This document shows, piece after piece, positions 401 to 47,954 of a DNA stretch of 55,359 bases (the stretch's first letter is position 1; each line of letters opens with the position of its first letter). Source of the stretch: a virus; IMG/VR virus record IMGVR_UViG_3300048580_000268, positions 1 through 55,359 of that record; one strand, written 5' to 3'. The position numbers were made by a program, and so were the translations under genes. Below the pieces are notes generated by a model. The model made no database searches and was not told the DNA's origin. It worked only from the letters and a program-made list of their open reading frames with translations.

Positions 401-3061
401 CTAACCACCTTGTAGTGATCTATCTAGTGTTGATGTTGAGACTCCAAGGCGAGCTGCTACCTCAGCTCTAGTATAGTCACCAGTACTAAGTAAGGCTTGA
501 GCTTGCTTAGTCTTGGCATCTGTCATTAATAGTTTAGCTCTTGGTGTGGCTAGCTCTCTGACTTTATCCATGTCTGAGTTGTCTAGTATTGACCTGAGTT
601 TAGTATCACTTACTGCTCCAGCTTGAATAGCTTCCCATTCTTTAGGCTCAATAACTATCTTCTCTTTCTTAGCGCCTACTCTATTGCGGGCCTCTGTTAA
701 TGCCTGGCCGTTTAACTTCTTTTCAGAAGCTCGATCCATATGTGGATTTGCTTGCTTCTTCTGCTCCATGATTTCATTAGCTAGAATCTGAGCCCGTCTT
801 TCACGAGGGGCGTTTTCTTTTGCTATGCGGAGTTTAACATCTAGAGAAGAAACTTCTTTCTCGTAAACTTTCTTTGCAGAGGGGGATGAGATAGCGCCTG
901 GGGTATTAATCATTTCAAGTCTTGCTTTGTTAGCCATAGCTTTTAGTCTGTTTGAATGATTAGCATACAGTCTTTCAACTGGTGTACCAGAAGAAAGATC
1001 ATGAGCATCTTTTGCTAATTCAAGTTCCTCAAACTTCCTTAAGCTTAACTCTCCCGTTTTACTATTTACCCTACCTGTTGGCTCCCAAACAAGCTCGCCA
1101 GTCTTTCGGTCTATTGGCCCACCGTTTCTTGCCCTACGTGGTATGACCTCAGGAACCCTTATGTCACGGCCAGCCCTAGAGATAATAGTAGAAGCTCCAC
1201 CGCTACCATCAGCTTTACGTTGATACTTTTCTTGCAGGGCCCTAATGCGGTTATCTTTCTCTGACTGCTTATAATTCAATCTGTGTTTTTCAGCGTCAAT
1301 AACAACCATTGAATGGCGAACTGCTGCAGCTAACTCAGTCTCAGAAGCCCCATGCAAAGTCATGTCTGTGATTAGGTTAGAGATAACACCCATCTGCTTT
1401 TGTGTGTCGCCCATAATTTTCATACCTGGGTATTCTCGGTATGTTTCTCTGGGGTTAAAGTTCTTTAAACCTTCTAAAGCAGGCGTTGATCTTATTCTAC
1501 CTTTATCATTTGGTATAACTAATACCGTGTCTCCATCAAAGTCCGCTCCAGACAAACGTTCCGCAACTTGTGCGTTTATTGCCACTGCATCTTTAGCGCC
1601 TTTAAGAAGTTTATTAGCTTCCCTGTTCTTGTTGTTAACAACGAGAAGTGGGATTTCGAAAGTTCCTCCATGCGGGTAGCGTATTAGAGATACTTTTGTG
1701 CCGTTATCATAATTAGGGGCGTAGACTTCTGTCGGTGATAATGAATTAATAGGTAGTATCGCATACCATGCTTGACCAGGAAGACTTGCTGCCTTTAGGT
1801 GAACGGACGCGGCATCAGTTCCATCTGCAAACTCTTGAAGAAGTTTAGATTTAACTGTTGGATTAGTTAACGCCATGATTTCATCAAGTTCAGCTTGCCG
1901 CTGTTTATAGGTGGTGTCTAAACGCTCTCTAATAAGTTTTGGTTCTTGTTTAGAAAGAACTTGCGAGGCTATGGATTTTGACCATGCTCCCCAATTACCC
2001 TCTTCATTGACAATGTTTACTGCTGACTTGTTAACTTCTAACCCAGTTTTTGGATCTTTCTCTGTTATTTGTCTACGAATTACAGCGCCAAAAGGATTAT
2101 CTGGATCATCGGTTAACTTCTTTAAAGCATCAAGTTTGTTGTTAGTTCTTTCTTTATTAGTATTAAATTGTATATCGACTCCTGCAGGCAGATCATCTTT
2201 ATACATAGCCATACCTTTTAGGTAGTGCTCTGGACCTACTTTAATACGGACTTGAGCGTAACGAGATCCTCCAAGATCTAAATCTTTAACTCCTGGACGG
2301 ATATACATTACTCCATCTAAAGCCGACCCTCCATCAGGCCCATAGACGACGTCAATTCTTTTTGGATTGATTGATATCGGTGGAAGAATCCCTAATGTAG
2401 ACTTTCCAGTATCGTCTAAACGCTCGTTAAGCATCCGTATTTTATTTCGGTTTTTAACGGCGTCGCCCCAACTTGTACCAGGTTTCGCAAGCACTCTAAG
2501 TTTTGTGTCATAAACTGTTCCAAGCTGAGGAACCGGAACGTTTGAGTGAACTTCGTAACCTTCTGCTTTCAACATAGACAAAGCGACTTTTAAACGCTCT
2601 TCACTCACATTCAAGTACATTTCTGTACCTATACCGACATCCAACCAATCAACTTTATTAACCTGATCTCTTAAAATATTAGTTACTGTTTCAATAACAT
2701 CATTTTTCATTTTAGCGGCTGGAGCAAGAAGAGTTCTAAATGTTGATTCTGGAATCCCCATTTGCTCGGATGCTGCTTTATCTGACATCTGCTTGGTGTA
2801 TTTAAGATATTCAGCAGTTTTTATTCGTTCTTGTTGTCTCTCATTTTTAGCAATAGTCTTAAACGCCCGAAGATCTGCTACAGACATTTCAAAACTTTTT
2901 GCAATTTCAGCTTCTGTAAATTTATCTTCTTTTCTCAGCTTTTCAACCATATCAAGAAAGGTTCGACTATTCTTGACATTTCCACCAGATCCCCAAGGGT
3001 ATCGACCAGATTTTCTGGGAGTACCATAATGTTCAAGATAAACGTCTTCATCAATGTACAT
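401..3061 (-). CDS. YonO-like single-chain RNA polymerase candidate
   Basis: A protein of 886 residues with the signature of the double-psi beta-barrel catalytic core of multisubunit-type RNA polymerases: ADFDGD at residues 506-511, inside AERLSGADFDGDTVLVIP, matching the metal-binding NADFDGD motif of beta-prime. The preceding segment (YPHGGTFEIP, 462-471, then a conserved VVNN) and the helical region after it fit a compact YonO/QDE-1-like enzyme. The N-terminus has HYGTPRKSGRYPWGSG (11-26), then helix-turn-helix-like segments (about 46-70 and 86-112). Another lies at the extreme C-terminus (AEVAARLGVSTSTLDRSL). The start has AAAGGGGG 6 nt upstream. Inference: it transcribes some phage genes, or enters with the virion. 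The DFDGD motif is seen; polymerase activity is inferred. These proteins are often annotated only as hypothetical or structural. Confidence 0.72.
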   Translation of the reverse strand: MYIDEDVYLEHYGTPRKSGRYPWGSGGNVKNSRTFLDMVEKLRKEDKFTEAEIAKSFEMSVADLRAFKTIAKNERQQERIKTAEYLKYTKQMSDKAASEQMGIPESTFRTLLAPAAKMKNDVIETVTNILRDQVNKVDWLDVGIGTEMYLNVSEERLKVALSMLKAEGYEVHSNVPVPQLGTVYDTKLRVLAKPGTSWGDAVKNRNKIRMLNERLDDTGKSTLGILPPISINPKRIDVVYGPDGGSALDGVMYIRPGVKDLDLGGSRYAQVRIKVGPEHYLKGMAMYKDDLPAGVDIQFNTNKERTNNKLDALKKLTDDPDNPFGAVIRRQITEKDPKTGLEVNKSAVNIVNEEGNWGAWSKSIASQVLSKQEPKLIRERLDTTYKQRQAELDEIMALTNPTVKSKLLQEFADGTDAASVHLKAASLPGQAWYAILPINSLSPTEVYAPNYDNGTKVSLIRYPHGGTFEIPLLVVNNKNREANKLLKGAKDAVAINAQVAERLSGADFDGDTVLVIPNDKGRIRSTPALEGLKNFNPRETYREYPGMKIMGDTQKQMGVISNLITDMTLHGASETELAAAVRHSMVVIDAEKHRLNYKQSEKDNRIRALQEKYQRKADGSGGASTIISRAGRDIRVPEVIPRRARNGGPIDRKTGELVWEPTGRVNSKTGELSLRKFEELELAKDAHDLSSGTPVERLYANHSNRLKAMANKARLEMINTPGAISSPSAKKVYEKEVSSLDVKLRIAKENAPRERRAQILANEIMEQKKQANPHMDRASEKKLNGQALTEARNRVGAKKEKIVIEPKEWEAIQAGAVSDTKLRSILDNSDMDKVRELATPRAKLLMTDAKTKQAQALLSTGDYTRAEVAARLGVSTSTLDRSLQGG

Positions 3062-3076
3062 TATTTACCCCCTTTT

Positions 3077-3637
3077 CTAAGAATAGTTGATTCGACGAAT
3101 TTCTTCAATATAACTGACGTGTTCCACAATAGTCCTCATGATGTTATCAATTGCTTCTGGAAAAGGTTCAAAAATGCGAATTTCATCTCTTTGATAGATT
3201 CTAAGTTCTATAGAAATGTCGTAAGGGCTTATCTCATACTCTAAACAAAATAGAGCAGCGTATACCTCAAGTTGTTTTTCGCTAGTTTTTGTAATGCCAG
3301 TTTTTAAATCATGAATTCTTAATTTGTTCCTCCGAAAACAAATAGCGTCTGCCGTGCCAAAACAATGTTCAGAGTAAAAAAGAGTTTGCTCAGAAGTCAT
3401 TTTGTAATTTATAGCGTCATTGACATAAGTTGCGAGCGCCATATTGGATCTCGACAATTTAACGCCTAACATTATAGCATTGTGAGCTAGTTTGTGTAAA
3501 TCGTCGCCGCGCCTAGCTGCTTGCGCAGAGCTGTATCTAGCTTCTAGTTTTTGTTCGTCATAATTTATCCAATGATAATTACTTGGACTTAGAAAGGCGT
3601 GTTTATCTTTTAAGTCCAAATGCTGATTGAAGCGCAT
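3077..3637 (-). CDS. Cas4/RecB-like PD-(D/E)XK exonuclease
   Basis: A 186-residue nuclease-like protein. In order it has a helical region with DLHKLAH (His 48), FGTADAI (Asp 97), IHDLKTG (Asp 110, Lys 112) and QLEVYAALF (Gln 122). This is the H-D-(D/E)xK-QxxxY layout of RecB-type and Cas4-like exonucleases. I see no cysteine set for a Cas4 iron-sulfur cluster. It overlaps the upstream nuclease gene by 35 nt and sits 15 bp before the RNA polymerase-like gene, so it belongs to the same operon. The likely role is processing of phage DNA ends in recombination or replication. Confidence 0.75.
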   Translation of the reverse strand: MRFNQHLDLKDKHAFLSPSNYHWINYDEQKLEARYSSAQAARRGDDLHKLAHNAIMLGVKLSRSNMALATYVNDAINYKMTSEQTLFYSEHCFGTADAICFRRNKLRIHDLKTGITKTSEKQLEVYAALFCLEYEISPYDISIELRIYQRDEIRIFEPFPEAIDNIMRTIVEHVSYIEEIRRINYS

Positions 3638-3899
3638 CTAATACCTCTTCTTCATTTTCTGGGTAAATAAACGCCGCAAAAGACATTTGGTTAAGCGTCT
3701 TGACATAATACTCTTGATTTGGTTGGGCGTCTTCATTGATAGAACGCTTAACTTCAAGCATAGCCCATCTATCTTCATATAAAACAAGTAAGTCTGGTAT
3801 ACCTTGAATCTTAGACGGATCATTCTTGATAATGAGACAGCCGGGCAAGCAGTCATAGATCTTTTTAATAAGATCATACTGATATTTAGACTCTCGCAT
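3603..3899 (-). CDS. VRR-NUC-type endonuclease
   Basis: A 98-residue protein with KNDP near residue 26, GIPDLL (Asp 36) and LEVKRS (Glu 49, Lys 51). This is the compact PD-(D/E)XK core of VRR-NUC/Holliday-junction-resolvase-like nucleases common in phage replication modules. I chose the ATG at 3899 because GGAGG lies 7 nt upstream; a longer reading frame upstream has no such support. It overlaps the following exonuclease gene by 35 nt, so the two are probably co-translated. Likely role: cleaving branched DNA during replication or packaging. Confidence 0.8.
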   Translation of the reverse strand: MRESKYQYDLIKKIYDCLPGCLIIKNDPSKIQGIPDLLVLYEDRWAMLEVKRSINEDAQPNQEYYVKTLNQMSFAAFIYPENEEEVLDALQSAFGLKR

Positions 3900-3985
3900 C
3901 GATTGTCCTCCAAAAAATGAAATAAATGTTTCTAATATACCTCTTCTCTCTATTACAATCGTTGTAAATACTAATACTGTATACG

Positions 3986-4507
3986 TCATGTAAAACAGTA
4001 GACACTTCTTGTCGGGTAGATGGCTACCCCTTGTAGGGCGGAGGTTAAAAGATCGTCAAACAACACACCTTCTTTGATACCGGCTTCTATTATCGAAGAA
4101 TAGACCTCTCCTGTTTGTAGGTTGAGTATTTGTTTTGAGTAATACTCAGATGGGTACACCGGTTTGAATTGCCTTGAATACTTCTGAGCAAACCAAGCAG
4201 GCCGCCAAGCCAAGTTACGATAATAAAGATTACTCTTATCGTTGTCTAACACAATAACTGTGTCTGGAATCGCCGACTTGTGGAACCCTGGTGAGATTGC
4301 TGGCTTAGCCACAAAGTGTTCGGCTACCAAAACTCTTACGGACCTGGTAAGTCTTACACCTCCTTCAGACAATGTGACCTTATAGTCACCTTGCATAGTT
4401 CTACTTTCAGACATGAGACGTTCTAGCCTTCTATTGTATACAGAGCCATAGTTATTTATGAGGTAATTACCCATACCTTTGATGGGTACCCACTCTTCAT
4501 CGGACAA
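3986..4507 (-). CDS. HNH homing endonuclease with NUMOD4 domain
   Basis: A 173-residue protein. The first 25 residues (EEWVPIKGMGNYLINNYGSV) match the NUMOD4 DNA-binding motif of phage homing endonucleases. Residues about 83-101 (VIVLDNDKSNLYYRNLAW) match the degenerate HNH core that usually follows it. The start is TTG, supported by AGGAG 6 nt upstream; starting later would remove the NUMOD4 motif. It stands between the helicase/small-protein pair and the nuclease pair, as expected for a free-standing mobile endonuclease. Confidence 0.82.
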   Translation of the reverse strand: MSDEEWVPIKGMGNYLINNYGSVYNRRLERLMSESRTMQGDYKVTLSEGGVRLTRSVRVLVAEHFVAKPAISPGFHKSAIPDTVIVLDNDKSNLYYRNLAWRPAWFAQKYSRQFKPVYPSEYYSKQILNLQTGEVYSSIIEAGIKEGVLFDDLLTSALQGVAIYPTRSVYCFT

Positions 4508-6344: not shown

Positions 6345-6369
6345 GTTAACTCCTTTGTAGGTTTCTCTC

Positions 6370-6398
6370 ATTATAAGCGCTGTAAAAACTACGGTTTC
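6370..6398 (-). promoter_or_regulatory. Cassette promoter 1
   Basis: TATAAT at 6375-6370 preceded by the conserved spacer TTTTTACAGCGCT. The -35 position (GAAACC) is poor and overlaps the end of the upstream coding sequence. It drives the 74-residue gene with a leader of only about 20 nt. Confidence 0.75.
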
Positions 6399-7020: not shown

Positions 7021-7048
7021 GGAAGTCTCCTTTGTAGGTGGTTATCTC

Positions 7049-7077
7049 ATTATAAGCGTTGTAATTTTTGTTGACAA
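7049..7077 (-). promoter_or_regulatory. Cassette promoter 2
   Basis: TTGTCA, a 17-bp spacer ending TTACAACGCT, then TATAAT. It is close to the consensus for a primary sigma factor and is fused to the U-tract of the preceding terminator. Confidence 0.9.
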
Positions 7078-7300: not shown

Positions 7301-7322
7301 GATTCCTCCTGTTTGTTCTCTC

Positions 7323-7351
7323 ATTATAAGAGCTGTAAATAATGCGGACAA
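7323..7351 (-). promoter_or_regulatory. Cassette promoter 3
   Basis: TTGTCC, a 17-bp spacer ending TTTACAGCTCT, then TATAATGAGAG. Drives the 58-residue gene. Confidence 0.9.
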
Positions 7352-7542: not shown

Positions 7543-7568
7543 GGTGCTCCTTTAGTAGGTTGTCTCTC

Positions 7569-7597
7569 ATTATAGGAGCTGTAATTTTTGTGCTATC
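7569..7597 (-). promoter_or_regulatory. Cassette promoter 4
   Basis: TATAATGAGAG preceded by TTACAGCTCC. The -35 position (GATAGC) is weak and overlaps the end of the upstream 63-residue gene. Confidence 0.75.
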
Positions 7598-8020: not shown

Positions 8021-8045
8021 TTCTGTCTCCTTCTGTGGTTATCTC

Positions 8046-8074
8046 ATTATACGCGCTGTAAATAATGTGGACAA
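8046..8074 (-). promoter_or_regulatory. Cassette promoter 5
   Basis: TTGTCC, a 17-bp spacer ending TTTACAGCGCG, then TATAATGAGA. Drives the 55-residue gene at 8020. Confidence 0.9.
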
Positions 8075-8285: not shown

Positions 8286-8312
8286 GTCAACTCCTTGTTG
8301 TAGGTTTCTCTC

Positions 8313-8341
8313 ATTATAAGCGTTGTAAATAATGCGGACAA
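8313..8341 (-). promoter_or_regulatory. Cassette promoter 6
   Basis: TTGTCC, a 17-bp spacer ending TTTACAACGCT, then TATAATGAGAG. Drives the 47-residue gene. Confidence 0.9.
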
Positions 8342-8548: not shown

Positions 8549-8570
8549 TTCTGTCTCCTTTGTTTCTCTC

Positions 8571-8599
8571 ATTATAGGAGCTGTAAAAAATGTGGACAA
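8571..8599 (-). promoter_or_regulatory. Cassette promoter 7
   Basis: TTGTCC, a 17-bp spacer ending TTTACAGCTCC, then TATAATGAGAG. Drives the 55-residue gene at 8548. Confidence 0.9.
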
Positions 8600-8838: not shown

Positions 8839-8866
8839 GGTTCCTCCGTTGGTAGGTGGTTGTCTC

Positions 8867-8895
8867 ATTATAAGCGTTGTAAATAATGTGGACAA
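8867..8895 (-). promoter_or_regulatory. Cassette promoter 8
   Basis: TTGTCC, a 17-bp spacer ending TTTACAACGCT, then TATAATGAGA. Drives the 68-residue gene. Confidence 0.9.
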
Positions 8896-9183: not shown

Positions 9184-9216
9184 TTCAATTCCTCCGTTTG
9201 GTAGGGTGTTTCTCTC

Positions 9217-9245
9217 ATTATAAGAGCTGTAATTTTTGCGGTTTA
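9217..9245 (-). promoter_or_regulatory. Cassette promoter 9
   Basis: TATAATGAGAG preceded by TTACAGCTCT. The -35 position (TAAACC) is weak and overlaps the end of the upstream gene. Drives the 79-residue gene. Confidence 0.75.
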
Positions 9246-9423
9246 TTACTCTTCTAAGTATGGATAAACAATGAAACTTACAAGCCTTTGGTTTGGGCCA
9301 GCTTTGAACATGGGATTCATAACCAAAGCATAGGGATGCTTTTCGTATAAATTGAGCAGCTCATCTTCAAGATATACAAAACCGACAGTTTCACTATCAA
9401 TTAGTATTGGTACGCGTTTCATG
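9246..9423 (-). CDS. Hypothetical protein, 58 aa, starting inside a tRNA end
   Basis: A 58-residue protein (MKRVPILIDSETVGFVYLED...) with no membrane segment. Its ATG shares two bases with the CCA end of the tRNA-Leu gene, and the GGGGG of the tRNA acceptor stem is the only ribosome-binding candidate. A longer frame would read through the tRNA and is rejected. AT-rich codons. No family recognised. Confidence 0.65.
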
Positions 9424-9511
9424 GTGCCCCCAGTGGGATTCGAACCCACACGACTTTTTAAAGTCCTTCGGGTTTAAGCCGAATGCGTCTGCCTGATTTC
9501 GCCATGGGGGC
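9422..9511 (-). tRNA. tRNA-Leu (anticodon TAA), CCA encoded
   Basis: A 90-nt cloverleaf with a GCCCCCA/TGGGGGC acceptor stem, anticodon loop CTTAAAC in a TTCGG/CCGAA stem, a long variable arm (GACTT/AAGTC) as in class II tRNAs, T-arm with GGTTCGAATCC, discriminator A and a genomic CCA. It reads TTA (and TTG), codons that are rare in high-GC actinobacteria. Confidence 0.95.
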
Positions 9512-9517
9512 TGGTGG

Positions 9518-9868
9518 CTACACGTCTGTCAAGTCCTTCCAAGAAGTTGTCCTGAACAGTTCTCTACAGAGACCGTCGGACTCGTAGAAATCGACAAACC
9601 CAACCCAGTCATCAGGGAAAATCATCTCGTGTTCTTGATCGAGACTATCGCGGTCCTGGGCCCAGTTGACGTGCTCGTGAACGACGATCTCTGAATTGGT
9701 CATTGCTTCTACGACCCACAGGTCACCATGCTCGAACATGATCTCGAAGTAAATCGGGTACCAAGTACCATCGATGATCTTCGGGAAACCCTCAACTTGA
9801 ATATTGACTGCTGGAATAATCACACCATTAATCTTAACGCAATTATTGAGATCTTCCAAGACGTCCAT
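9518..9868 (-). CDS. Hypothetical acidic protein, 116 aa
   Basis: A 116-residue soluble acidic protein (MDVLEDLNNCVKINGVIIPA...) with alternating strands (IYFEIMFEHGDLWVVEAMTN) and aromatic C-terminus. AAGGAG lies 6 nt before the ATG. It sits 6 bp upstream of tRNA-Leu in the same transcript direction. No family recognised. Confidence 0.75.
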   Translation of the reverse strand: MDVLEDLNNCVKINGVIIPAVNIQVEGFPKIIDGTWYPIYFEIMFEHGDLWVVEAMTNSEIVVHEHVNWAQDRDSLDQEHEMIFPDDWVGFVDFYESDGLCRELFRTTSWKDLTDV

Positions 9869-9881
9869 TAATTACTCCTTA

Positions 9882-10118
9882 TTAATACGGATCGGCGTAC
9901 TTACCATGCCAAGGATCATTACACGGCTCTAGGTGTTTACCACCCAGATCATTATACATAATCAAGCGTCGAGTCTTTTGCCGGTCACTCTGGCAGGTTG
10001 GGCACGGATAAACTTCTTTATCCTTAGACTCCGCCCAAGACAACCAAACTAAAAGGCCTAAAACAAAAAGAAAGAGGCCCCAAAAATACCAAGTACCGAA
10101 CCACTCTAAAACTGTCAT
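9882..10118 (-). CDS. Membrane protein with zinc-ribbon-like tail, 78 aa
   Basis: A 78-residue protein: N-terminal membrane helix (WYFWGLFLFVLGLLVWLSW), then CPTC and, 30 residues on, CNDPWH, which could bind one metal ion. Start at 10118; an upstream in-frame start would translate the tRNA gene and is rejected. The ribosome binding site (AAAGGA) is rather far from the ATG. No family recognised. Confidence 0.7.
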   Translation of the reverse strand: MTVLEWFGTWYFWGLFLFVLGLLVWLSWAESKDKEVYPCPTCQSDRQKTRRLIMYNDLGGKHLEPCNDPWHGKYADPY

Positions 10119-10138
10119 TATCTGTCTTTTTCCTTTTG

Positions 10139-10211
10139 TGGGCTGGGAGGGAATTGAACCCCCGACCGAGTTATTATGAGTAACCTGCTCTAACCACTGA
10201 GCTACCAGCCC
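10139..10211 (-). tRNA. tRNA with CAT anticodon (Met or Ile2)
   Basis: A 73-nt cloverleaf: acceptor GGGCTGG/CCAGCCC, D-arm AGCTCAGTGGTTAGAGC, anticodon loop CTCATAA, T-arm GGGGGTTCAATTCCC, discriminator A, no genomic CCA. CAT could be elongator Met, or Ile for ATA if the C is converted to lysidine. I cannot tell which from sequence alone. Confidence 0.93.
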
Positions 10212-10218
10212 TAGAGCT

Positions 10219-10437
10219 TTATTCAACTACAATCGTGATTCCAAGAATTTTGTTATTGGCGAGATCAACAGCAGCTTCAGGAGGAAGTTGCAGCAAATAT
10301 GGGTCTTCTGATATCTCCTCAAATTGCTGAGATGTGATTCGAATCGTTTCGTTTTGAGCGATAAAGGTTTCTCCGTCCAAAAGACTAGTTGTTTTCAGAT
10401 CATGAACTGCGTCTATAAGATCTTTGAAGTTGGTCAT
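10219..10437 (-). CDS. Hypothetical protein, 72 aa
   Basis: A 72-residue acidic protein (MTNFKDLIDAVHDLKTTSLL...) with a helical N-terminus and a hydrophobic C-terminal strand (ILGITIVVE). AAGGA lies 5 nt before the ATG. It overlaps the upstream gene by 38 nt and ends 7 bp before the CAT tRNA. No family recognised. Confidence 0.7.
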   Translation of the reverse strand: MTNFKDLIDAVHDLKTTSLLDGETFIAQNETIRITSQQFEEISEDPYLLQLPPEAAVDLANNKILGITIVVE

Positions 10438-10627
10438 TTTTGTCCTTAGTTGTGTTAAATCGCCGAGGCTTTACGATGTTCGACCTCTTGACAGAAAATA
10501 CTGCCGCGTAGTCGTCTCGAAACCAAACATGAGTCTCGTCCTTGTCTATGACTTCAACAAGACCTTCGTCATGATCTCGGCCAAGATGCTCGTGGTAATA
10601 GGTCAACTCTACAAATTCTGGAACCAT
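10400..10627 (-). CDS. Hypothetical protein, 75 aa
   Basis: A 75-residue protein (MVPEFVELTYYHEHLGRDHD...): a strand-rich acidic first half (GLVEVIDKDETHVWF), possibly an SH3-like small barrel, and a basic tail (KPRRFNTTKDKNDQLQRSYRRS). AGGAGG lies 4 nt before the ATG. No family recognised. Confidence 0.7.
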   Translation of the reverse strand: MVPEFVELTYYHEHLGRDHDEGLVEVIDKDETHVWFRDDYAAVFSVKRSNIVKPRRFNTTKDKNDQLQRSYRRSS

Positions 10628-10663
10628 GTTTCCTCCTAATTAAAAATGGCTAATGAAAATGCC

Positions 10664-10732
10664 GGACACTAAGAACTATGCACGCAGTCGTCAATGAGTG
10701 GATAGTTTGTGGTTGGATAACCCTTAGTGCCC
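10664..10732 (-). ncRNA. Stem just 3' of tRNA-Lys
   Basis: GGACACTAAG (10664-10673) and CTTAGTGCCC (10723-10732) pair at nine of ten positions around a loop of about 49 nt. There is no reading frame here. It could be a processing or terminator element after tRNA-Lys, or a further domain of the large RNA with the tRNA embedded. Confidence 0.4.
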
Positions 10733-10739
10733 AGCACAG

Positions 10740-10813
10740 TGCACCCCCTGGGACTTGAACCCAGAACCAACGGATTAAAAGTCCGACGCTCTAACCAATT
10801 GAGCTAGAGGTGC
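10740..10813 (-). tRNA. tRNA-Lys (anticodon TTT)
   Basis: A 74-nt cloverleaf: acceptor GCACCTC/GGGGTGC with one wobble pair, D-arm AGCTCAATTGGTTAGAGC, anticodon loop CTTTTAA, T-arm CTGGGTTCAAGTCCCAG, discriminator A, no genomic CCA. It reads AAA. Its 5' end abuts the long structured RNA region, so RNase P cleavage here could also set the 3' end of that RNA. Confidence 0.95.
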
Positions 10814-11667: not shown

Positions 11668-11673
11668 CTTCTC

Positions 11674-11702
11674 ATTATAAGCCCTGTAATTTTTGCGGAT
11701 CA
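11674..11702 (-). promoter_or_regulatory. Promoter of the large RNA and tRNA region
   Basis: TATAATGAGA preceded by TTACAGGGCT, the conserved core of the cassette promoters. The -35 position is TGATCC and overlaps the end of the upstream gene. Nothing coding follows for about 1 kb, so its first product is RNA. Confidence 0.8.
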
Positions 11703-20815: not shown

Positions 20816-20820
20816 TCTCC

Positions 20821-20849
20821 ATTATAGGACCTGTAATTCTTGCGGATGG
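20821..20849 (-). promoter_or_regulatory. Cassette-type promoter 11
   Basis: TATAAT preceded by TTACAGGTCC, the conserved core. The -35 position (CCATCC) is weak. A further decayed look-alike (TTTTTACAACG followed by ATTTTTAT) lies about 80 bp upstream. Confidence 0.65.
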
Positions 20850-21274: not shown

Positions 21275-21298
21275 AGTTTGCCTTTCTGTAGGTATCTC

Positions 21299-21327
21299 AT
21301 TATAAGCGCTGTATTTACTGCGGGCTT
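21299..21327 (-). promoter_or_regulatory. Cassette promoter 12
   Basis: TATAATGAGA preceded by ACAGCGCT. The -35 position (AAGCCC) is weak and overlaps the end of the upstream gene. Drives the 96-residue gene. Confidence 0.75.
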
Positions 21328-40825: not shown

Positions 40826-41323
40826 TTATAGTCTAATATCGTCAAATAAAACTGGGCCTTGTTTAAGAGAAGCTTTAACAAACTTTTTCCCTTTAATAGC
40901 TGCAGTTTGTCCATCTTTGGTTACGTAAATGGTTTTTCTTGGTTTGGCCAGAGCATATTGAAAAGCGGCGTCTAGTTTTTTTTGATCTATTGTTGCTTGT
41001 TTTTTTCGACCACGACGAGTATTTAAGTTTCCGCTTTTTCCTTCAAGTTTACGAAGTGTTTTTTTTGCTGATCTGGCTCGTTGTCGCTTTGAGGCCCCCG
41101 CAGAAGCGTAATCTAAAGCTGCGTTTCTTACTGAATTCTTTTTCGGCTTTGACAGCATAGGAGTTCTGTTAGAAATATTAGTTTGTCTTTGAACTGGGTT
41201 TGCAAATCTTGGGTTTGCTGCTTTAGCATTTGCTATTGCGCTCCTATTTTGATTTTTGCGAACCCCCCACTTCATTCCTTTGACACCAAAGTGTTCAAGA
41301 AAGTCTTCTACTTCTTTATCCAT
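40826..41323 (-). CDS. Head-associated protein with HFGVKGMKWG motif, 165 aa
   Basis: A 165-residue very basic protein. It opens MDKEVEDFLEHFGVKGMKWG, the conserved motif of a group of phage head-associated proteins, then a Lys/Arg/Ala-rich helical body (ASKRQRARSAKKTLRKLEGK) and a short strand end (VLFDDIRL). Two further copies of the motif occur at 41371-41667 and 43433-44335. Highly basic: it may bind DNA in the head. Function unproven. Confidence 0.75.
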   Translation of the reverse strand: MDKEVEDFLEHFGVKGMKWGVRKNQNRSAIANAKAANPRFANPVQRQTNISNRTPMLSKPKKNSVRNAALDYASAGASKRQRARSAKKTLRKLEGKSGNLNTRRGRKKQATIDQKKLDAAFQYALAKPRKTIYVTKDGQTAAIKGKKFVKASLKQGPVLFDDIRL

Positions 41324-41370: not shown

Positions 41371-41667
41371 TTAACTACTTAAAAGATACTCAGCAAATTT
41401 TTTTCCGGCGACTATTGCGGTAACCATAACCGCGTCTTCTAGTTTAATCTTTCGGTCCGATAGTCCCCATAGGTTTTTTTCTGAACCGGCAAGCTCGTTT
41501 TTGTATCTTTCACGAAAACTTTTATTAACGGCCGTTTGTTTGTTATTTGCCTTCGAATTTGTTCGAACGTTTTTATTAGAAACTGCAGCGCCTCGGTTTT
41601 GGCGAACTCCCCACTTCATTCCTTTGACACCAAAGTGTTCAAGGAAGTTTTCTGCATCTTCACTCAT
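41371..41667 (-). CDS. Head-associated protein with HFGVKGMKWG motif, 98 aa
   Basis: A 98-residue protein opening MSEDAENFLEHFGVKGMKWG, then a basic linker (RQNRGAAVSNKNVRTNSKAN) and a C-terminal helix (EDAVMVTAIVAGKKFAEYLL). Its ATG overlaps the terminase stop codon, so it is translated with it. Small sister of the 165-residue and 300-residue motif proteins. Role unknown; probably head-associated. Confidence 0.75.
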   Translation of the reverse strand: MSEDAENFLEHFGVKGMKWGVRQNRGAAVSNKNVRTNSKANNKQTAVNKSFRERYKNELAGSEKNLWGLSDRKIKLEDAVMVTAIVAGKKFAEYLLSS

Positions 41668-43432: not shown

Positions 43433-44335
43433 TTACTTCTTAGGTTTTATTGACTTAGATAGTTTTTCTATTCTTTGTCGGTCTTTGTTTACTTTTATAA
43501 TATCTTCTCTTGAAATTTCTGATTTTGCTTTTTTGGCCTCTTTTTTAGCGTCTTTAACGGCTTTTTTAGTCTCATTAACCACATTTTTGGCAGATTCTTT
43601 ACCACTATTACCGACAGGTATATTGAGCATCTTTTGAACTTCATTTTTGATTACTGCTTTTGTTGCTTCTTTAGCAACTTCTTTTGTTGCCTGAACAAAA
43701 ATATCTTTTGAGGCCCTAGTAAACGCTTCGCCTTTTGTGAGTGGCACCGTTTCTCGGACAAGCTGCGAATACTGCTTTTCTAACTGCATTCTTGCAATCG
43801 CCGACTTGAGCTCATCATCAGTCATTTTTTTAGCTGAGGGTTTTGAGCTCGACGATTTAGTTTTTTCTTTAGCTTCCCGTTCTTTGTCTTTACGGGCTTT
43901 CCAATTTGAGGCCGACCTAGATTTATCTGGAGCTTTTCGAACGCCCCACTTCATTCCTTTGACGCCGAAGTGTTCAATAATATCTTCGGTAACGCCAGCC
44001 GCAAAAACTTCTCCTTGAGCCATAGAACGATTAAGCTCTTCTTGTCTTTTTTTAGCTTTAGCTGCAATGGCACGACCATCAGCTTCTTTTTTTGGAACCG
44101 GCTCTCCCCAAGCGGCAGCCGTTAAAGCAAACCGGGTCGGTTCACCTTTTTCGTCGACAAGTGGTGGATAGTCTTTCTGTCCATAAAATCGAAGTGCCCA
44201 GCTAATCCACCTTTTTTTATCGGCGGTACTAGCCTTAGTGTAATCTTTAACGCCCGGTTTTAAGTTTCCACCAAATTCTTTTCTTCCGGCTGCAGTTAAA
44301 CCACCTTTTGGGTCTTTAAGCGGTGGATTACTCAT
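43433..44335 (-). CDS. DUF6321-like protein with HFGVKGMKWG motif, 300 aa
   Basis: A 300-residue basic protein. Residues 1-90 are a DUF6321-type domain (PKGGLTAAGRKEFGGNLKPG; RWISWALRFYGQKDYPPL; RFALTAAAWGEPVPKKEADG). Then IIEHFGVKGMKWGVRK and a Lys-rich coiled-coil body. Seen in phages between connector and terminase. The motif is internal here but N-terminal in the two smaller sisters, so it behaves as a movable docking tag. Function unknown. Confidence 0.8.
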   Translation of the reverse strand: MSNPPLKDPKGGLTAAGRKEFGGNLKPGVKDYTKASTADKKRWISWALRFYGQKDYPPLVDEKGEPTRFALTAAAWGEPVPKKEADGRAIAAKAKKRQEELNRSMAQGEVFAAGVTEDIIEHFGVKGMKWGVRKAPDKSRSASNWKARKDKEREAKEKTKSSSSKPSAKKMTDDELKSAIARMQLEKQYSQLVRETVPLTKGEAFTRASKDIFVQATKEVAKEATKAVIKNEVQKMLNIPVGNSGKESAKNVVNETKKAVKDAKKEAKKAKSEISREDIIKVNKDRQRIEKLSKSIKPKK

Positions 44336-45299: not shown

Positions 45300-47954
45300 T
45301 CACCAGTAGAGGAGGCAGCGGAAGCACTCGGCGAACGACGCCCTGTTGAGCCACAGGTACTTGAGGCCGTCTTTGGTGGTGACGATCTCCATGCGGTTGC
45401 CGATGATCGCTGTCGGTGCGACGTAGGGGTACATCGACCCGCCGTTGACGTTCGCTGTCACCACGTTGAGCGACATGACTCTCTGTGTGGCGTCCTTGTG
45501 GAAGTAGATCCGGTCCACGCCGTCGTAGGCCGTCATCGTGCCGGTCGTCAGTGTCTCGGTCGTGGGCGAAGTCGCGATCGGTGACATGCGGTCGGTGGTC
45601 AGGTCGAGCCGGTCGAAGCCCGCCAAGCCGCCGCCTCTGGTGGCGAACATGTACCGGCCACGAATGTTGACGTTCGTGGTGCCGAACGCCCAGTTGGCGT
45701 TGCAGCCCACAGCCTTCGCCACGCCCTCAAGGATCTGGAACCCGGTGACGTTGGTGGTCGGATTAGCGATCGTTGCGACAGTGAGCGTGTCGGCAGTGTT
45801 GCTGGAGATGGAGACTTCGATGGGTGTGGTGCCGGTCGTGAAGATACGGACACGTTTACCTGAGTAGATATTGACCGGCCAGTTTGCACCCGTCTGTGCG
45901 AGTGTGGTGGTGCTACCGCCAGAGGTAACACCAGCGTGAAGCACCCCCGGTCCACCAGCGGTGCAGATGCTGTAGCGGCTGACACCGTTGGTGGGGGCCG
46001 TGCCGAGACCAGAACCGACGATGGTTAGGGTGGTGGCGGTGTTAGCGGTAATGCGCCCGATCAGCGTCGTTGCGCCACCCGTCGTTCCGCCCGTCGCAGC
46101 AGTCTGAACGTACAGGAAGCGTCCTGCGTGCTCGTCGGTCTGCCACGCCTTCGTGGCGTCAACCAACGTTGTGACCGACTGGGCGGTACCGATTGCGGGC
46201 GAGCCAGAGCCAGCGAGGGAGTAGGTGAACGTCGTAGCCGAGGGCACCGTCGCGATGTTGAAGGTGCCGTTCAGCGCCGTGGTGGTCGTAATGCCAGCAA
46301 CGGTCACCGAGTTACCGACACGGAACTGGTGCGGATGAGAGGTAGTGACCGTTGCTACGTTTGTCGCCCATGTAGCCGAAGCGATCGACACCGGCTGATG
46401 CCCCGCCACGGTAGCGGAGGAACTGCGGGCGATACCCCAATCGACCTGCCGACCCAACGTGGTGACGGTCGACTCCAGATTCATGATCGGCAGGGCGGCG
46501 TTGCCGCCGTTCCACATGAACATCTTGTCGGGGTCACCCTGAATGACATACACGCTGTCGGTGCTTGGAGTAACATCCCATCTCCCGTAGATGCTCAGTA
46601 CTGTCGCCGTGTTGGAAGCGATCGTGCGAACCTGACCGGCACCCGTTCCGTGGAGGATACGAACGGCGTAGTTCTTCCAGCGGTTCTCCGCCCACGTCTT
46701 AGCCGCGTCGGTGAGCGACCCAAGCGTTAGTGGACCTGTCGACGGCTGAGCAGCGGCGGTTGCCGTCCCGGCGTCGAAACCGAGGATCATGTAACGGCTC
46801 GTAGCGTCCGGGTGGGTGGTCCACACCGGGTCGACCGTCAGGTCGGTGGCGGTGTTGGAGGCGATCTTGCGGATCTGGCCGACACCCGTGCCCGAGAAGA
46901 TGTACACCCAGTAGTTCTGCCACTGGTTGACTTGCCACGCCGGGTTGTCCACGCCGCGTGTGGCGTCGACCAGTGTGTGGTTCGTGCCGCCGGTCGCCCT
47001 GCCCCGCTCCCAGATCGAAGCGTTCTCCGACATGCGCTCAAGGCTCATGTCGGTCGCTGCGGCCAGCAGAACGTTCGTGCTGGCGGGCATGATGTACCAC
47101 GTGTCGGTGAGGATGTCGTACATTTGATGCACGAAGAACGGCGCAGCAGCCGTCGAGGTGACCATCGAGATCATGCCCGACTGGATGCGAAACACCGAAG
47201 CGTCGGTGGGCTGCACTCCCCACGCCGAGTCGACGGTGAGCACCTGTGACTCGATCGTGAACGACGCCTGCAAACCGTTGGTGATGACCGGAACGGGGGC
47301 GAAAATGCCGGGGTTGTTGTAGGGCTTGTTCTGCTGGGTCGTGTCACCGAAGGTCAGCACCGTCGCGGTGTTGGAAAGGATGCGGCGGTACTGGCCGACG
47401 CCGGTGCCCGACACGATGCGGGCGGTGTACCCGGCGTACTGGTTGACGCCCCACGCCCGCGCCGTGTCAGTGAACGACAGCGAACCTTGCGTGTTCGTGA
47501 CGGTCGTGACGACGCCAGTGTCATGCACGGTCGGCTCAGCCACACCCGTGATCGTGCGACGCTGACCGGCACCGGGACCGCTGACGATCACCACGTCGTA
47601 GCCGAGCATCGCTTGAGCGGACACTGCCGGGACCGTGAGCGTGTTCGCTCCTGCGGTAATCACATTGCCTTCCGGCCCCATACCACCCATCAGCTTCATC
47701 GATGAGTAGGTCGTCAAGGCAACCGGAGGCGAGGTCAACTGCTGGTACACGTCGGTGAAGGTGTCATAACGCCAGAAGTTCGTCGAGTTGAGCAGGTAGT
47801 AGATGTACCTGCCGTGCTCGGTGCTGAGGAAGTTGGGGTTGTCTGCCGAACAGGTGGACGAGATCGCCGACGACACTGCGGGGGCGAAGCGGGTCCACTC
47901 CCATGTCGGGAGGTCGACCTGTCGGGTAAGGGTGTTGGAGGTCAGGGTGGGCAT
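45300..47954 (-). CDS. GC-rich repeat-containing virion protein, 884 aa
   Basis: An 884-residue protein built from at least six related modules of about 65-70 residues. Consensus: W-x3-Y-x2-Y-x-V-x-I then G-T-G-x-G-Q-x-R-x-I-x-S-N-T-A-T-x-L-T, for example RIVSGTGVGQYRRILSNTAT and RILHGTGAGQVRTIASNTAT. Such beta-rich repeat proteins occur as virion or tail appendage proteins. The gene is much more GC-rich than its neighbours. TGAGGA precedes the ATG. Exact location in the virion is not known. Confidence 0.78.
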   Translation of the reverse strand: MPTLTSNTLTRQVDLPTWEWTRFAPAVSSAISSTCSADNPNFLSTEHGRYIYYLLNSTNFWRYDTFTDVYQQLTSPPVALTTYSSMKLMGGMGPEGNVITAGANTLTVPAVSAQAMLGYDVVIVSGPGAGQRRTITGVAEPTVHDTGVVTTVTNTQGSLSFTDTARAWGVNQYAGYTARIVSGTGVGQYRRILSNTATVLTFGDTTQQNKPYNNPGIFAPVPVITNGLQASFTIESQVLTVDSAWGVQPTDASVFRIQSGMISMVTSTAAAPFFVHQMYDILTDTWYIMPASTNVLLAAATDMSLERMSENASIWERGRATGGTNHTLVDATRGVDNPAWQVNQWQNYWVYIFSGTGVGQIRKIASNTATDLTVDPVWTTHPDATSRYMILGFDAGTATAAAQPSTGPLTLGSLTDAAKTWAENRWKNYAVRILHGTGAGQVRTIASNTATVLSIYGRWDVTPSTDSVYVIQGDPDKMFMWNGGNAALPIMNLESTVTTLGRQVDWGIARSSSATVAGHQPVSIASATWATNVATVTTSHPHQFRVGNSVTVAGITTTTALNGTFNIATVPSATTFTYSLAGSGSPAIGTAQSVTTLVDATKAWQTDEHAGRFLYVQTAATGGTTGGATTLIGRITANTATTLTIVGSGLGTAPTNGVSRYSICTAGGPGVLHAGVTSGGSTTTLAQTGANWPVNIYSGKRVRIFTTGTTPIEVSISSNTADTLTVATIANPTTNVTGFQILEGVAKAVGCNANWAFGTTNVNIRGRYMFATRGGGLAGFDRLDLTTDRMSPIATSPTTETLTTGTMTAYDGVDRIYFHKDATQRVMSLNVVTANVNGGSMYPYVAPTAIIGNRMEIVTTKDGLKYLWLNRASFAECFRCLLYW

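Follow-up and report, generated by a model that had tools for sequence, protein, structure and literature searches.

Does the long open reading frame at the end of this virus record encode an RNA polymerase (RNAP) of the phage's own, and if it does, which promoters would that enzyme read, and at what stage of infection? A preliminary description, made from the letters of the DNA, had proposed a YonO-like RNAP with helix-turn-helix (HTH) ends. The window analysed here is the whole IMG/VR virus record, 55,359 bases in length, and nearly all of its genes are on the minus strand. The minus-strand run passes through endolysin, tail fibres, terminase, portal, capsid/protease and tail proteins (55 to 22 kb). 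It continues through replication and small early genes to a helicase, an HNH gene, a VRR-Nuc gene, an exonuclease and the RNAP gene, beyond which a single small reading frame lies at the end of the record. The gene order is comparable to that of Arthrobacter phage Arcadia, Streptomyces phage RosaAsantewaa, Rhodococcus phage ReqiPoco6 and Lactococcus phage 1706, and in ReqiPoco6 the RNAP gene is likewise followed by one small gene and then by the annotated cos end. The virus is a tailed double-stranded DNA phage of bacteria that encodes its own single-chain RNAP. The gene and its two conserved neighbours are as follows.

401–3061, minus strand: single-chain two-barrel RNAP of the PHROG 4291 family, 886 aa, ATG start, reading frame exactly these limits (profile match and predicted structure)
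3077–3637, minus strand: RecB-like exonuclease, PHROG 3953, the conserved upstream neighbour (PHROG match and conserved gene order)
3603–3989, minus strand: VRR-Nuc-type endonuclease, a conserved neighbour (profile match and gene order)

Two features of the structural region are recorded here in their own right. The PHROG 2645 major-tail-protein domain occurs on three reading frames between 30612 and 36354 (296, 774 and 643 aa) and sits C-terminally in the 774- and 643-aa products, which suggests duplicated, decorated tail-tube proteins. An 884-aa reading frame at 45300–47954 has internal repeats, a G+C content of 62% (44% for the genome) and no PHROG match; it probably encodes a fibre or surface protein of foreign origin.

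The RNAP reading frame is not a product of chance, because the PHROG 4291 profile covers its full length (1203 bits), phage records match it, and a search of IMG/VR finds 219 loci with relatives. About 250 deposited phage records match the protein, 249 of them over at least 80% of its length. These are mainly phages of Arthrobacter, Gordonia and Streptomyces, and most are cultured. The preliminary description held that such proteins are often left as hypothetical. That name does occur, but depositors also use 'helix-turn-helix DNA-binding protein' or 'RNA-dependent RNA polymerase', the latter also being the name that PHROG 4291 and RefSeq give the family. A further 131 bacterial or metagenome-bin contigs, many from Lachnospiraceae and Oscillospiraceae, encode relatives. 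These are probably prophages, since some of them lie on long contigs of bacterial isolates. Relatives with 40–48% identity (L280–L359) are frequent in contigs of gut Firmicutes, with tagged genes just downstream, and the isolates include Hungatella, Blautia, Butyrivibrio and Faecalibacterium.

Neither phmmer against PDB sequences nor a profile search found an RNAP, so the relationship to known polymerases is visible at the level of the fold only. The full-length AlphaFold model (pLDDT 81.8) retrieves QDE-1 in a structure search (E 7e-9), with P74 gp62 and RDR2 next. When the core (residues 222–722) is refolded with gut relatives, pLDDT rises to 88.5, and the whole core aligns to RDR2 (Z 17.9, VIA), QDE-1 (16.7), P23-45 gp64 (13.6) and P74 gp62 (12.8), against a Z of about 10 for the barrel-A region of multisubunit enzymes. 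A Foldseek search with the core also finds the virion RNAPs P23-45 gp96 (E 3e-5) and crAss-like phi14:2 gp66 (E 1e-3). The predicted core holds two double-psi beta-barrels in one chain, and is flanked by helical regions.

2003–2266, minus strand: first barrel (DPBB-B like), residues 266–353, with K282 and K303 (predicted structure and conservation)
1502–1771, minus strand: second barrel (DPBB-A like), residues 431–520, with DFDGD at nt 1529–1543 (predicted structure and conservation)
2714–2965, minus strand: N-terminal helical region with a sigma-70 region 4-like HTH (residues 86–113) and an HTH-like segment (about residues 33–67) (Pfam and model)
404–514, minus strand: C-terminal HTH, residues 850–886 (Pfam match below cutoff, and model)

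The DFDGD signature noticed beforehand lies at residues 507–511 (within SGADFDGD) and supplies the DxDxD triad. Alignments of 45 relatives and of 48 sequences, gut prophages among them, show it to be invariant, and likewise K282 and K303. The companion barrel, on which the preliminary description had made its reading depend, is present in the model. The HTHs proposed for both ends are also borne out: Pfam Sigma70_r4_2 matches residues 86–113 above its cutoff, HTH_23 matches residues 856–881 at 0.3 bits below its cutoff, and a helical HTH-like segment is predicted at about residues 33–67. The N-terminal helical region would serve in promoter recognition. Judged from the model, the product of 401–3061 is very probably a catalytic two-barrel RNAP. 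Small separate regions matching the N-terminal HTH region of the RNAP (about residues 31–120) occur in related phages (G060:C1:27214-27378, G026:C1:6344-6574 and G077:C1:8998-9213), and Arthrobacter phage Qui has an HTH protein of 95 aa that matches the RNAP model structurally. Such solitary proteins could be regulators with the same DNA target as the N-terminal HTH of the RNAP.

Comparison with known enzymes places the protein among single-chain RNAPs while separating it from the one first named. YonO of SP-beta is also phage-encoded, consists of one chain of comparable length (839 aa) and carries a motif of the DxDGD type; its gene lies near an exonuclease gene, as here, and it is a proven DNA-dependent RNAP. 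However, it has no detectable homology to the window RNAP in a comparison made by sequence only: when the profile of 45 sequences is aligned to YonO with hhalign, the result is an unrelated 19-residue match with a probability of 7.8. Thus, of the phrase 'YonO-like RNAP', the single-chain RNAP fold stands and membership of the YonO family is left unsupported, the closest solved folds being QDE-1, RDR2 and gp64/gp62. The enzyme probably works like YonO and P23-45 gp64 in kind, although its sequence does not place it in the YonO family. The promoter of YonO, and its need for other factors, were stated by its authors as still to be determined (PMC5467207). P23-45 gp64 and P74 gp62 share the phage-encoded two-barrel single-chain core and DxDxD, but show only about 14–17% identity and their solved chains are of about 590 residues rather than 886. 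They have a promoter motif of their own, which is GC-rich, and were not found in virions (PMC10770324). P23-45 gp96 and phi14:2 gp66 are two-barrel virion RNAPs that form part of a giant virion protein, whereas the enzyme here is free-standing with a short N-terminal tag, and would be packaged by that means. The best structural matches over the core, QDE-1 and plant RDR2 (Z 15–18), differ in being eukaryotic RNA-silencing enzymes with other outer domains and about 13–14% identity.

The preliminary description had also noticed a distinct promoter family in the genome, and this is confirmed with sites drawn from other phages. No repeat family in the window is larger than the one of the form CCGCA-N5-TACA-N5-TATAATGAGA, most of whose sites stand before small early genes and are followed by a ribosome-binding site and an ATG. 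A matrix built from forty sites of relatives, with no window site among them, gives exactly 12 matches along the window, all on the minus strand and in the early region; at a score of 10 or more the same matrix finds none on the plus strand and none in the reversed sequence. Each of the 12 sites listed below is supported by both the repeat family and the relatives' matrix, and the last line gives a weak site found by the matrix.

6365–6396, minus strand: promoter-family site, score 25.7
7044–7075, minus strand: promoter-family site, score 17.7
7318–7349, minus strand: promoter-family site, score 30.1
7564–7595, minus strand: promoter-family site, score 28.0
8041–8072, minus strand: promoter-family site, score 21.7
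8308–8339, minus strand: promoter-family site, score 33.2
8566–8597, minus strand: promoter-family site, score 24.4
8862–8893, minus strand: promoter-family site, score 26.3
9212–9243, minus strand: promoter-family site, score 33.9
11669–11700, minus strand: promoter-family site, score 37.8
20816–20847, minus strand: promoter-family site, score 34.8
21294–21325, minus strand: promoter-family site, score 27.7
3947–3978, minus strand: degenerate site TTTACA-ACGAT-TGTAAT-AGAGAG, weak, score 1.0

The degenerate site precedes the RNAP start by about 900 bp, at a place where the motif is perfect in several relatives and stands ahead of a nuclease-RNAP mini-operon. With the relatives' matrix, no promoter-family site is found in the structural region of the window. 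Genes for tRNA-Leu, tRNA-Met and tRNA-Lys are present at 9422–10813, inside the early-gene cluster that carries promoter-family sites.

Across the lineage the consensus is CGC(A)-N4/5-TTACA-N5-TATAAT-RRR with fixed spacing. The forty relatives' sites, whose collection required TATAAT, follow TCGC(A)-N3-W-(T)TACA-NNNCN-TATAAT-RRR, the CGC being near invariant; a TTGACA-like -35 element is at chance level in these forty (2.75 of 6 positions, against 2.92 when shuffled). Ordinary host sigma-70 promoters were considered as the identity of the repeats and dropped because the relatives' logo shows no conserved -35. Loci that carry the RNAP contain 49 copies of TACA-N5-TATAAT on its strand against two on the opposite one, and the control spacings N3, N4, N6 and N7 yield 0–2 occurrences. 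Twenty-nine whole records contain 105 sites, on one strand only within each record, and where the position of the RNAP is known that strand is the RNAP strand. Lactococcus phage 1706 shares this arrangement but carries TATAGT uniformly in place of TATAAT. In gut prophage loci, few strict promoter sites lie in the 4 kb on either side of the RNAP.

The motif can also be used to find the enzyme. When viral contigs are scanned at the DNA level alone for CGCA-N5-TACA-N5-TATAAT-RRR, 33 of the 35 records of at least 40 kb, among the matches listed, encode the RNAP; some of the 35 appear to be known deposited phages, and not all are independent. A control scan with N6 spacing gives 24 single hits in all, none in a record with the RNAP. 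One of the two large motif-bearing records that lack it (G063) has the DNA polymerase of the lineage close to the end of its contig and is possibly truncated; the other (G003) has a marginal DNA polymerase match only. A sister group with the DNA polymerase of the lineage but without the RNAP was sought as a control, and no clear case was found. Full-length matches to the DNA polymerase occur in 252 records, essentially the RNAP set. RNAP, DNA polymerase and the tag described below thus mark one set of phages, and the promoter is tied to the lineage rather than strictly to the enzyme. The promoter family is real and shared across the lineage; that the RNAP reads it is probable, though well short of certain.

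How the enzyme might reach such promoters early in infection is suggested by its N-terminus. Residues 7–27 are the best-conserved segment of the RNAP (0.86, against 0.82 for the DFDGD barrel), and a comparable tag appears on proteins of the head module.

2981–3043, minus strand: N-terminal tag of the RNAP, residues 7–27 (VYLEHYGTPRKSGRYPWGSGG), predicted disordered (conservation and model)
43433–44335, minus strand: head-module protein directly upstream of terminase, with tag EHFGVKGMKWGVR (DUF7211) at nt 43943–43972 (Pfam)
41371–41667, minus strand: small protein with N-terminal DUF7211 tag, just after terminase (Pfam)
40826–41323, minus strand: small protein with N-terminal DUF7211 tag, between terminase and portal (Pfam)

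The three head-module proteins match Pfam DUF7211 (PF23847), a 25-residue profile, and the RNAP itself gives no match to that profile. Its tag nevertheless appears to be a related variant, because one reading frame (L092:6086-6559) matches both PHROG 4291 and PHROG 7021. It is one of two small basic reading frames with SGRYKWGSG that stand beside one with the canonical tag on a contig carrying a terminase, and at another locus (L090) a small reading frame with the RNAP-type tag directly precedes terminase. Among 80 gut loci the tag is present on 67 RNAPs, and all 64 canonical tags are on the RNAP strand. In phage 1706 the RNAP orthologue (orf75) is deposited under the database label 'structural protein', as is the only other tag-bearing reading frame found there (orf7), and just 11 of the 76 reading frames of that phage carry the label. 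The labelled set includes the small early-arm orf62 and orf71, which have no evident structural homology, and this suggests that the labels have a proteomic basis. The corresponding label in ReqiPoco6 was copied from 1706. A literature search returned nothing relevant on the GMKWG tag, on DUF7211 or on 1706 with an RNAP. The position of the RNAP gene in the early/replication arm rather than the head module counts against packaging. On balance the RNAP is likely to be carried in virions, and DUF7211 may be a general capsid-loading tag.

These observations can be assembled into a model to which we give a slightly better than even chance: an RNAP packaged in the virion transcribes the early genes, starting at the lineage promoter. 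The two barrels would form a Mg2+ active site with DFDGD on one and the lysines on the other, an arrangement like that of QDE-1 and P23-45 gp64 which is drawn from the predicted structure and the invariant residues. The enzyme would be DNA-dependent, and its HTH regions would take the place of a sigma factor in recognising CGC(A)-N4/5-TTACA-N5-TATAAT-RRR. The disordered N-terminal tag would load it into the capsid, from which it would be injected with the phage DNA to transcribe the cluster of small early genes. In relatives with their own promoter copy about 900 bp upstream of the RNAP mini-operon, new enzyme may be made from that copy, and would then serve later transcription and the next particles. 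The preliminary description had raised a possible switch to the phage's own transcription machinery; the early-gene promoters, the tag and the annotation of 1706 together suggest that the enzyme may instead come in with the virion and not seize transcription at a later stage.

The main rival to this model is that host RNAP, aided by a phage factor, reads these promoters in the style of T4 middle promoters while the phage RNAP serves another stage, which we consider somewhat unlikely. T4 middle promoters have a MotA box and TATAAT but no -35 element, and in the MotA/AsiA system a phage protein replaces -35 recognition while host sigma reads TATAAT. The sites described here resemble them in having a phage-specific upstream element, no -35 and a TATAAT block, but their sequence is different, here the phage encodes a complete RNAP, and no homologue of MotA or AsiA was noticed among its genes. 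A host enzyme is favoured by TATAAT, the exact sigma-A -10 consensus, in the relatives' sites (a match that their collection required), by TTGTCC or TTGTCA 17 bp upstream, at the -35 position, in six of the 12 window sites, possibly usable by host RNAP, and by the solitary small HTH proteins of related phages that resemble the N-terminal HTH of the RNAP. However, the sigma-A of Lactococcus, the host of 1706, prefers TATAAT, yet the sites of that phage are uniformly TATAGT. The relatives also lack a -35 signal, and the rigidly spaced promoter follows the phage lineage across Actinobacteria and Lactococcus, not the host.

Other readings concern the stage, the template and the tag. A non-virion late RNAP with a YonO-like role would be made early and would transcribe the structural operon from one or a few promoters of its own, leaving early genes to host RNAP. 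In its favour, the gene closes the early/replication arm beside the genome end after which the structural genes come, sigma70-like sites are no commoner than chance across the structural region, and YonO transcribes the late operon of SP-beta (PMC5467207). But the window has no promoter-family site in that region, and both the 1706 label and the tag at the N-terminus speak for a virion protein, which makes this reading distinctly unlikely. It is very improbable that the enzyme is an RNA-dependent RNAP making double-stranded RNA, as in RNA silencing. The nearest folds are QDE-1 and plant RDR2, and Pfam RdRP has a weak match in the window RNAP (E 0.05) and a better one in the 1706 orthologue (E 7e-5). 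Against this, the gene is carried by double-stranded DNA tailed phages in which no silencing machinery is seen, QDE-1 also copies DNA, and the phage enzymes with this fold that have been assayed, YonO and P23-45 gp64, depend on DNA (PMC5467207, PMC10770324). A different purpose for the tag, such as complex formation at a terminase or replication site, proteolysis or membrane contact, seems doubtful: DUF7211 is without known function and unnamed in the literature searched, and its virion role is our inference, but the tagged proteins of 1706 are deposited as structural and the tagged genes cluster with terminase and portal.

The virion-packaged reading thus remains the preferred one, and the preliminary description is supported in part. 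About 250 deposited phage genomes share a single-chain two-barrel RNAP, together with a candidate promoter that is sharply defined and common to the lineage and a tag that may serve in packaging. For so large a phage family, the names 'RNA-dependent RNA polymerase' and 'helix-turn-helix protein' are probably misleading. A broader reading, to which we give somewhat less than an even chance, is that these phages represent a widespread and unrecognised class of virion-packaged single-chain RNAPs with sigma-like HTHs, which would read CGC-TTACA-TATAAT unaided and be tag-loaded into siphovirus capsids. Actinobacteria and Firmicutes would host hundreds of such phages and prophages, and the tag would be common to other injected proteins. 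Promoter recognition by such an RNAP, and delivery of a virion RNAP in ordinary siphoviruses, would be directly testable in phages of Arthrobacter, Gordonia and Streptomyces.
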